Assembly: GCA_029055345.1 (NCBI GenBank)
Contig: JAIDDJ010000032.1
Location: 1-64,000 of the forward strand
DNA: 64,000 bases
Reading direction: 5' to 3'
DNA from: Muribaculaceae bacterium
GTDB taxonomy: Bacteria > Bacteroidota > Bacteroidia > Bacteroidales > Muribaculaceae
Shown in pieces: positions 32,367-49,674 of this stretch; position 1 is the stretch's first letter, and each line of letters starts with the position of its first letter. Position numbers and translations under genes: made by a program. Under the pieces are notes generated by a model. The model worked only from the letters and a program-made list of their open reading frames with translations. It did not search any database and was not told where the DNA came from.

Positions 32367-33287
32367 TTGTCGCGCATTAGAAAAATGGAAAGGATAAGAG
32401 AGTTCCTCAAATATCTCGAGTCGGAGGAACGCGCAAGCGTTCATACGGTAGAGGCTTACGGGCGCGACCTGCATCAATTTGCTGAATGGCTGAATGAATC
32501 GGATGTTCCCTGGGAAAATGTGCGTCCGGCAGATGTAAGGGAATGGATAGGGACACTTGCCGATGAAGGCATGACTCCCGCTACCTTACGTAGGAAAGCT
32601 CAGAGCCTGCGAGCTTTCTTCAGGTGGGGGCGGATTAGAGATATGTTCCAAAGTAATCCTGCGGCCGATACCCCACTCGTCAAGAAACGACGCCGACTCC
32701 CTGATTTTATAAAGGAAGGGGACATGGAAAATCTTTTGGAAGACACTCTTCCGGAAGATTTCAGCGCGGCCAGAACTCACGTCATCCTTACTCTATTATA
32801 TAGCCTGGGACTTCGCCAGGCGGAACTTTTAGGGCTGACCGATGCTGATATCCGGGCAGACGGGCTTGAGCTTCGAGTCACCGGAAAGCGCAACAAGCAG
32901 CGAGTTCTTCCGGTGCCTCCGCAACTAAAAGACATCATCCGTCAATGGCAAAAAAGGCGTGACGAGCACTTTCCGGATCTTCCCGCACCCCGCTCATTGA
33001 TAGCCGGGCCACATGGCGCGCTATCAAAAGAAATGCTGTATCAGATAGTCCGGCAAGGACTCGCCGGAGTCTCTACCGGGCGCAGAAGCCCCCACACATT
33101 GCGCCATTCATTCGCCACTGCCATGCTCAATCATGGCGCGGATATTGATGCCGTCAGAGAAATGCTTGGTCATGCTTCGCTGCAGACCACCCAGATCTAT
33201 ACCCATATCAGCTATAAGGAACTGATGGCGAACTATGCCGGCGCGCACCCACGGAGCCGGAAAAGGAAAGACAACCGGGAGCACTAA
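32367..33287 (+). CDS. xerC: Xer-type tyrosine recombinase
   Basis: 306 residues. The N-terminal SAM-like core-binding domain (about 1-95) precedes the catalytic domain. Catalytic residues are visible: Arg150 in SLGLRQAELLGL, His243 and Arg246 in SPHTLRHSFATAML, the GHASLQTTQIYTHIS block, and the nucleophile Tyr278. Length and motifs fit a chromosome-dimer-resolving XerC/XerD protein rather than a phage integrase, and its place between rpsU and hpf is, from memory, common in Bacteroidales. Whether it is XerC or XerD is not certain. Its stop codon abuts a repeat element. Confidence 0.85.
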   Translation: MSRIRKMERIREFLKYLESEERASVHTVEAYGRDLHQFAEWLNESDVPWENVRPADVREWIGTLADEGMTPATLRRKAQSLRAFFRWGRIRDMFQSNPAADTPLVKKRRRLPDFIKEGDMENLLEDTLPEDFSAARTHVILTLLYSLGLRQAELLGLTDADIRADGLELRVTGKRNKQRVLPVPPQLKDIIRQWQKRRDEHFPDLPAPRSLIAGPHGALSKEMLYQIVRQGLAGVSTGRRSPHTLRHSFATAMLNHGADIDAVREMLGHASLQTTQIYTHISYKELMANYAGAHPRSRKRKDNREH

Positions 33288-33620
33288 GACCTCATTCAAT
33301 AAAATATGTTAATGCCAGAGCGGCTATCTTCGAGCTAAAATATTCTTTTTCAGAAGGAGCAACCTTTGAGTTGTGACTGAGGAAAAAGGATATTTGAGCC
33401 GAAGAGAGCCGGACGGATGGTAACTTAAAAACATATGATTGAGGAATTTATTAAAATTATTAAAATTTAATGGTAATTAGAAATACCTTATTCTCGCAGC
33501 TGCACCCCGGCTATCACTTTTTGATTCAGTCACATAGCCCGCTATGCTCCTGAATCTGCAAAGCGATATCCGAGGCACATCTGCGACTCTGGCATTAACA
33601 GATTTTATTGAATGAGGTCT
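33287..33620. mobile_element. Non-coding composite hairpin element, full copy A (334 bp)
   Basis: Terminal inverted repeats of 34 bp (33287-33320 and 33587-33620) match at 33 of 34 positions. Each begins AGACCTCATTCAATAAAAT and ends GTTAATGCCAGAG. Inside are two long hairpins: a left arm at 33321-33411 (CGGCT-TCTTCG pairing with CGAAGA-AGCCG) and a right arm at 33494-33586 (TCGCAG with CTGCGA), joined by about 80 AT-rich bases. The apical parts hold GTCACA and GCTCC in opposite orientations. No open frame fits. The first base of the element is the last A of the xerC stop codon. Confidence 0.8.
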
Positions 33621-33733
33621 AAACTTGAAATACTCCTTCCCCACAAGGAGTAGTGACAAAGATAGAGAGGAGACGGAGCAAATAAAAGTGGATTTTTTTC
33701 GTTTAGAATTAACCGAGTTCCATATTTTTTTGT

Positions 33734-33741
33734 TACCTTTG
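33734..33741 (+). promoter_or_regulatory. -7 element before hpf
   Basis: TACCTTTG matches TAnnTTTG. No TTG is found at the ideal distance upstream. It lies about 90 bases before the hpf start, in the 211 bp between the repeat element and the gene. Confidence 0.45.
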
Positions 33742-33831
33742 TAAAGAGCCGATGTCAGGATATAAAGAGGACATATGAATATGTCGTGCATAAGCTCAGA
33801 CTTCACATACCAACACTTAAAACCGAAAACT

Positions 33832-34122
33832 ATGGAAACAAAGATCAAAGCAATTCATTTTGATGTCAGCGACCGTCTGACGGCCTTTATCAATAAGAAA
33901 TCAGAAAAGATGGCCAGGAGATTCGAAGCCATCACAGAGATAGAAGTGACACTTAAGGTAGTGAAGCCGGAGACGGCCATGAATAAGGAAGCCTCTGTCA
34001 AGATGATAGCCCCTCCGGCAGCCGAGCTTTTTGCATCCAAGACCGCGGACACTTTCGAAGAGGCCGTGGACCTATGCATGGATGCTCTTGAGCGCAAGCT
34101 TGAGAAGAACAAGAACACTTGA
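33832..34122 (+). CDS. hpf: Ribosome hibernation-promoting factor, short form
   Basis: 96 residues from the ATG at 33832 (METKIKAIHFDVSDRLTAFI); an in-frame ATG 57 bp upstream adds residues not typical of the family. The fold is the beta-alpha-beta HPF/YfiA domain, with ITEIEVTLKVVKPETAMNKE and FEEAVDLCMDALERKLEK. It binds the 30S decoding region in stationary phase. It lacks the C-terminal dimerisation domain of long HPF. It is followed 29 bp later by mltG. Confidence 0.92.
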   Translation: METKIKAIHFDVSDRLTAFINKKSEKMARRFEAITEIEVTLKVVKPETAMNKEASVKMIAPPAAELFASKTADTFEEAVDLCMDALERKLEKNKNT

Positions 34123-49217: not shown

Positions 49218-49266
49218 ACCCCGATTTTAAGGGGAATATTCCGGCCGGGATTTAGAGAAAAGGCTT

Positions 49267-49601
49267 AGACTCCATCCAATAAAAAATGTTAAATGCAGGG
49301 CGGGCTCTTTTTGAGCTAAAATCTTGAATCTCTGAGGGAGCAGCCTTCGAGCTGTGACCGAAGAGATTCGAGATTTAAGCCAAAAAGAGGCCGGACGCAG
49401 GTAACTTTATTTTATTAGTACGAGCCATTATATTTAAATTGATTAAAATTAAAGTTTTTAAATTACTCCATTCATCGCATCTCAGGGGCATATATCGCCT
49501 TTTGCCTCAGTCACATAGCACGCTATGCTCCTTCGTCTGCAAGACGATATATGCTCCCTGAGATGCGACCCTGCATTAATATTTTTTATTGGATTGAGTC
49601 T
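49267..49601. mobile_element. Non-coding composite hairpin element, full copy B (335 bp)
   Basis: Terminal inverted repeats at 49267-49300 and 49569-49601 share AGACTC, ATCCAATAAAAAAT and TGCAGGG. The left arm (49302-49392) pairs CTCTTTTTG with CAAAAAGAG; the right arm (49475-49568) has a perfect 13-bp base, TCGCATCTCAGGG with CCCTGAGATGCGA. The layout and length equal copy A. Stem positions differ by compensatory changes (for example C-G in A against T-A in B). No open frame fits. It lies between the membrane protein and tRNA-Leu(CAA). Confidence 0.8.
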
Positions 49602-49674
49602 TAGAACGCGTTCCTAAACCGGAGTCGAGAATCAGGGATGAGTTGACTTAAACAGGCCGGAAAATACATTTTGA

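Follow-up and report, generated by a model that had tools for sequence, protein, structure and literature searches.

Two MITEs with covarying, GA-tipped hairpin arms in a Muribaculaceae genome and their likely IS5-family ancestry

Two miniature elements and their copies

The window, i.e. the whole 64,000-nucleotide stretch of Muribaculaceae DNA analysed here, contains two short related elements, A and B, in which the same parts follow one another in the same order: terminal inverted repeat (TIR), left hairpin arm, spacer, right hairpin arm, and TIR. Their features are listed below, together with the matches to our arm model, R1.

33288..33619, + strand: copy A, a 332-bp MITE between TAA triplets at 33285-33287 and 33620-33622
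33287..33320, + strand: left TIR of A as found, 1 base of the target duplication included
33321..33411, + strand: left hairpin arm of A (R1 match 33340-33393)
33494..33586, - strand: right hairpin arm of A (R1 match 33514-33566)
33587..33620, - strand: right TIR of A as found, 1 base of the target duplication included
49268..49600, + strand: copy B, a 333-bp MITE between TTA triplets at 49265-49267 and 49601-49603
49268..49300, + strand: left TIR of B
49301..49393, + strand: left hairpin arm of B (R1 match 49321-49374)
49475..49568, - strand: right hairpin arm of B, its tip readable on the - strand (R1 match 49495-49547)
49569..49600, - strand: right TIR of B

An earlier note on this DNA had given B the layout of A, which we also find, and a length of 335 bp; the ends used there take in target-duplication sequence, the exact element being 49268-49600 (333 bp). 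The TIRs are complementary over 34 nt (97%) in A and over 29 nt (90%) in B. No ORF of at least 90 aa lies wholly inside A or B, which are thus MITEs without a transposase gene of their own; a 123-aa ORF on the minus strand (33477-33848) overlaps the right end of A.

On its left side, A abuts a tyrosine recombinase gene (32367-33287, Phage_integrase), the stop codon of which is the TAA duplication at 33285-33287. Just inside the left arm lie GGTAACTTT in B (49400-49408) and GGTAACTTA in A (33419-33427), representing a type of box that also occurs within many arms of other elements and that we take to resemble the Bacteroidetes -7 promoter box, pointing inward. The covariance models of Rfam 15 identify an S4-Bacteroidia leader in the window, which, like the relatives of the source genome, points to class Bacteroidia; at gathering scores, they give no match on A or B. 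Applied to five loci at E up to 1, they matched no arm and gave a single weak match elsewhere in these loci.

The source assembly (2.03 Mb in 78 contigs, 83% complete) holds 12 copies of A over 320 bp (94-100% identical) and four full copies of B (88-100% identical), with many fragments besides. Identical TAA or TTA triplets (TWA, a target duplication of 3 bp) flank 13 of the 16 full copies; at L002, L009, and L032, the two flanks do not match, TTA preceding the element and TAA following it. At least 23 of the 156 contig ends of this genome fall within A- or B-type elements; the repeats therefore break the assembly, and the real copy number is higher. B-like DNA was found in 23 of the 61 genomes searched (the source genome included), all of one genus. 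Two relatives lack an insertion at the position of B, the flanks being 31 bp apart in G001 (440 bp in the window) and about 80 bp apart in G008 (about 497 bp in the window), which shows past insertion and nothing beyond that. A plasmid collection yielded no match to B, and a phage collection none to A.

Pairing, tip, and strandedness of the arms

Both arms of an element form long hairpins that read from the nearest end towards its middle. Folded as RNA, B reaches -152.9 kcal/mol (z -16.2) and A -142.1 kcal/mol (z -13.6), with 0 of 100 shuffles as good in either case. The two elements are identical at 240 of 329 aligned bases. The base pairs on which the earlier note relied are as it described them (in A, C-G at 33331-33401 and 33328-33404 and G-C at 33499-33581; in B, T-A at 49312-49382, 49309-49385, and 49480-49563). 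Over the pairs of B's predicted fold, the double changes kept between A and B number nine in the left arm, six in the right arm, and five in the TIRs, and the pairs of B absent in A number two, eight, and three, respectively; with eight broken pairs against two, the right arm is compensated less well than the left. Because the TIRs compensate too, double changes taken alone do not establish that a strand folds, and the claim that paired changes alone prove maintained hairpins falls. The paired changes in the TIRs are attributed to the fact that both ends must suit the transposase.

The recurrent tip of the arms consists of a GA/GA mismatch, 2 bp, a further GA/GA, and a G.T-closed stem with a 4-nt loop. 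Arms were collected with the pattern GGAGC-12 nt-GTGACYG, and positions fixed by the search pattern were not counted as evidence. The tip pattern has 43 matches in the source genome as opposed to one for a reversed control. Among the matches listed, 181 distinct sequences make up the arm set, which falls into 85 clusters at less than 80% identity and includes at least three chance matches; L197, L222, and L347 were left out as such, so that 34 of 37 arms and 82 of 85 clusters were used.

A multi-copy covariation check on divergent arms (34 arms, <74% identity) was strongly positive. The covariation score is 0.710, compared with 0.201 after shuffling and 0.12-0.18 with slid partners; doubly changed cells number 211 (74.5 shuffled), and 84.8% of cells are paired (56.8% shuffled). 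Simply counting the pairs that show a double change at all gives 16, which is unremarkable next to 15.1 after shuffling. At free positions of the inner stem, three pairs are Watson-Crick in 80-84 of the 85 clusters (37-38 expected from the columns) and a fourth in 80 (63 expected); the next outer pair is Watson-Crick in 66 (24 expected). In an alignment of 14 whole elements from the genus, moreover, 39 of 90 consensus pairs show a double change that preserves the pairing. With covariation strong across divergent arms and whole elements alike, the earlier view that the hairpins are maintained is borne out: as judged from the alignments, paired mutations are shown to have kept the arms of the 332/333-bp repeat in shape.

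Of the 21 genus clusters, in which the pattern leaves the positions of the outer GA/GA free, 16 have it intact; the count over all 85 clusters was not used because the strict pattern fixes those positions. A third GA/GA occurs further out in about 33 of the 85 clusters. The closing pair, where free, is G.T in 55 of 67 cases, G-C in six, A-T in four, and G.G in two. Eighteen arms were located by way of the transposase, with a model that favours GA/GA; 17 of these have an intact inner GA/GA and 13 an intact outer one, and in one of them, L173, the closing pairs have changed to G-C and T-A. No inner GA/GA is left in the right arms of L065, L066, L086, and L087.

The mismatches of the outer stems (82 clusters, outside every pattern-fixed position, in an alignment that treats all mismatches alike) are distributed unevenly. 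Written for the inward-reading strand, 2192 pairs are Watson-Crick, 304 G.A, and 9 T.C, the remainder being 129 G.T, 38 A.C, 81 A.A/G.G, and 11 T.T/C.C; beyond the third GA position, G.A still stands at 219 and T.C at 9. The TIRs, serving as control (62 of 79 elements tried), have 33 G.A, 18 T.C, 45 G.T, and 20 A.C. The arms stand apart from this control by their G.A excess (p 4e-11). The excess of G.T over A.C (129:38) does not differ significantly from that of the TIRs (45:20; p 0.24) and, since the control has such an excess too, is not relied on for strandedness. Purine-purine mismatches on one strand mean that one strand folds, as RNA or as single-stranded DNA (ssDNA). At the level of these alignments, the arm fold is shown to be selected on one strand, that reading inward from each end. 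The earlier proposal of RNA or a cruciform thus reduces to the folding of a single strand, be it RNA or ssDNA, a strand-symmetric cruciform being disfavoured (G.A 304 vs T.C 9).

Relatives, spread, and comparison with known systems

On contig C50 of the source genome, a broken transposase whose pieces match DUF4096 and DDE_Tnp_1 lies between the two arms of an element with related TIRs. Relatives of this transposase (E 1e-6) occur at 25 loci in 17 of 111 genomes of the genus, the source genome included. By the arm model, both arms flank the transposase at 8 of the 25 loci, a single arm is present at two (L176 and L195, each cut by a contig end), and 12 further loci have no arm; L180 was scored as armless, its arm-model match falling outside the inverted repeats of its IS, and the cut loci L189 and L193 count as neither armed nor armless. 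On the transposase tree, in which several rows are short or on long branches, the presence of arms requires two changes, compared with 8.1 after shuffling. L175 is armless within the armed group, having kept the base of the right arm and lost the tip. Two proteins of armed elements exceed the cut-off of NCBIfam NF033580; the armless relatives are IS5 elements too, with good TIRs. Sequence comparison of these relatives shows A and B to be, in all likelihood, MITEs derived from an IS5-family IS. No IS5 transposase was found at E 1e-6 in the 122 strict-pattern loci among the matches listed, for which a positive control was run.

In public genomes, the strict tip pattern occurs in at least 120 stretches. 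Among the matches listed, 108 of 120 titles bear names taken as Bacteroidales (Muribaculaceae, Prevotella, Prevotellamassilia, Barnesiella, Paramuribaculum, and others), five read only ‘uncultured bacterium’, and seven name other phyla (L233, L242, L284, L298, L304, L336, and L337). The carriers include Prevotellamassilia timonensis and Paramuribaculum intestinale, which are available in culture. In L233, L242, L298, and L337, the paired tip lies inside larger inverted repeats, and their labels possibly reflect mislabelled bins. L304 and L336 belong to a Bacillota-labelled MAG (NALB_7861_17) with the same arms at two places, possibly a mislabelled bin as well. The strict pattern is absent from 295 other Bacteroidota genomes (all but two outside the order), which is weak evidence of absence given the insensitivity of the pattern (six matches in the source genome vs 43 for the looser one). 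A second strict tip faces the first within 2 kb at 6 of the 122 strict-pattern loci among the matches listed. Two viral contigs contain the strict pattern: L346 has an arm, and L347, being stemless, is a chance match.

A and B share with IS5-derived MITEs their TIRs, a short target duplication, the lack of an own transposase gene, and transposase-bearing relatives of the IS5 family, and differ in their long paired arms with a recurrent GA tip, present also in transposase-bearing elements. BrickBuilt of Porphyromonas gingivalis is likewise a Bacteroidales MITE with IS5-like TIRs and predicted stem loops; it has 23-nt direct repeats and 4-bp duplications, and GA-tipped arms are not described in the part of the source available to us (PMC4596501). 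REP/REPIN elements with RAYT transposases resemble A and B in their recurring hairpins, which stand on a GGAG-like foot and are often arranged as inverted pairs; A and B differ in having TIRs and target duplications. A search of literature titles, with most subscription journals outside its scope, returned nothing on GA-tipped arms in IS5 elements of Bacteroidales.

Likeness also extends to ERIC, the core of which we found in 5373 of 5426 Escherichia coli genomes. In the predicted fold of one ERIC (L360), the inner tip is that of the arms, and the same strand folds better (-47.4 vs -33.4 kcal/mol). Common to both are GGAGC-stem-GTGACTG, the GA/GA mismatch, the G.T closing pair, four variable paired positions, and the 4-nt loop; moreover, ERIC (or IRU) is small and transposon-like, with inverted ends. 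Unlike A and B, ERIC is a 127-bp enterobacterial element with one hairpin, for which the available parts of the sources name no transposase-bearing relative (PMC2229807, PMC10969869). It also has TA at its ends, TIRs unlike those of A and B, and C-G pairs where the arms have the outer GA/GA. Arm model R1, built without ERIC, does not match it with default filters; with filters off, ERIC ranks first in its 844-base locus at 13.8 bits over 25 of 54 model positions (E 0.002, E-values of R1 being rough). Membership of A and B in ERIC was rejected, as length and ends differ and the match extends to only 25 of the 54 positions. By sequence, the inner tip of the arms resembles that of ERIC, and a shared tip rather than membership is what we claim; such a tip may have arisen by convergence.

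Possible roles of the arms

MITEs are usually seen as deletion remnants. Our preferred reading, to which we assign as a whole a probability of about 0.5, is that A and B are non-autonomous IS5-family MITEs, moved in trans, with arms that form a one-strand fold acting as RNA. They would descend from ISs in which these two arms enclose an IS5-type transposase, the middle part having been lost, and would be moved in trans through their TIRs, with the 3-bp TWA duplication. The arms would be selected as the fold of the strand reading inward from each end, and a transcript entering from either flank would make a GA-tipped hairpin first. The purine-rich tip could be a docking or processing site for a ribonuclease, a ribosome, or an RNA polymerase factor, and could alter what becomes of read-through RNA, in the manner reported for ERIC, which, according to the available parts of the sources, destabilises upstream mRNA via RNase E depending on orientation (PMC2229807, PMC10969869). 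By this analogy, we infer that the arms may act as RNA in transcripts entering from either flank.

A role in host mRNA predicts a clear orientation bias. Among 61 one-armed elements (69 arms examined, three of them inside ORFs), the upstream gene shares the direction of the folding strand in 28 cases and opposes it in 31; for the downstream gene, the figures are 37 shared and 20 opposed (p 0.03; two tests were made). The lack of bias upstream and its weakness downstream count against the RNA proposal, as does the persistence of the arms in transposase-less MITEs, which fits a DNA role too. The shortness of the ERIC match, obtained with filters off, and the loss of the inner GA/GA from four right arms weigh against it as well. 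The persistence in MITEs and the unbiased upstream genes make room for a function of the arms as DNA in transposition. The arms would then be folded ssDNA hairpins in replication or transposition, with the GA tip recognised by the transposase or a host factor, and we regard this as less probable than not, albeit a serious contender. It agrees with the strand bias of the mismatches and with arms that read inward at both ends, like end signals, and that follow a transposase lineage; yet the armless relatives are also IS5 elements with good TIRs, and the TIR of a one-armed MITE (L269) resembles that of an armless IS (L183). Very stable tandem GA in DNA obeys a pyrimidine-GA-purine rule, which the neighbours of GA/GA in the arms break, pair -4/25 being A-T in 27 of the 85 clusters. 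ERIC, furthermore, acts as RNA, according to the available part of PMC2229807.

That the arms are inherited relics of a structured ancestor, their fold being under no present selection, is unlikely. Copies of A are 94-100% identical, and much of the pairing within a subfamily is therefore simply inherited, but the 34 arms below 74% identity pair in 84.8% of cells (56.8% shuffled). It is more unlikely still that inverted-repeat gene conversion or strand-symmetric selection for a cruciform keeps the arm halves complementary: paired changes would be produced in this way, and the TIRs show them as well, but GA/GA mismatches would be erased rather than kept at the outer position in 16 of 21 genus clusters, and the two strands would be treated alike, at odds with 304 G.A and 9 T.C in the outer stems. 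Scarcely credible is the idea that the tips are of the REP kind and owe their mobility to a Y1 (RAYT) transposase, despite the short hairpin with its GGAG foot, the many copies, and the inverted pairs, given that the source genome has no Y1_Tnp match (E 0.001; 83% complete), that the motif is absent beside the Y1 gene in 12 of 12 genus loci, and that TIRs, duplications, and IS5 relatives account for mobility.

Beyond the preferred reading of arms acting as RNA, we consider, at somewhat long odds, that the GA-tipped hairpin might be a portable module common to ERIC and to IS5-type MITEs and ISs of gut Bacteroidales, plus a few Verrucomicrobia-, Proteobacteria-, and Bdellovibrionales-labelled contigs; one conserved cellular factor would recognise it, and the armed IS5 elements would be its transposase-bearing carriers. 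Such a module, if real, would provide a plausible parent class for ERIC and a common mechanism. The arms are a structured module that has been kept, with its bias to one strand, through repeated transposition, next to TIRs of more than one type and in elements that have a transposase as well as in those that lack one. Two old questions become testable, namely what keeps the hairpins of bacterial MITEs and where ERIC came from.

Several minor observations concern other mobile DNA of this genome and genus. The source genome has no PF13586 transposase. Many genomes of the genus contain frames of 300-400 aa with weak partial matches to Y1_Tnp (profile positions about 40-120). At L152:261-960, an A-type end lies within an element of the other TIR type, which looks nested or hybrid. 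A second type of MITE is present in the source genome at L219:1430-1805, with AGAGCGCGTCCC as its TIR and a tip stem of CATACC/GGTATG. This tip stem occurs five times among the tip-pattern matches of the genome, and an IS of the genus (L185, in G095) has a TIR similar to AGAGCGCGTCCC.
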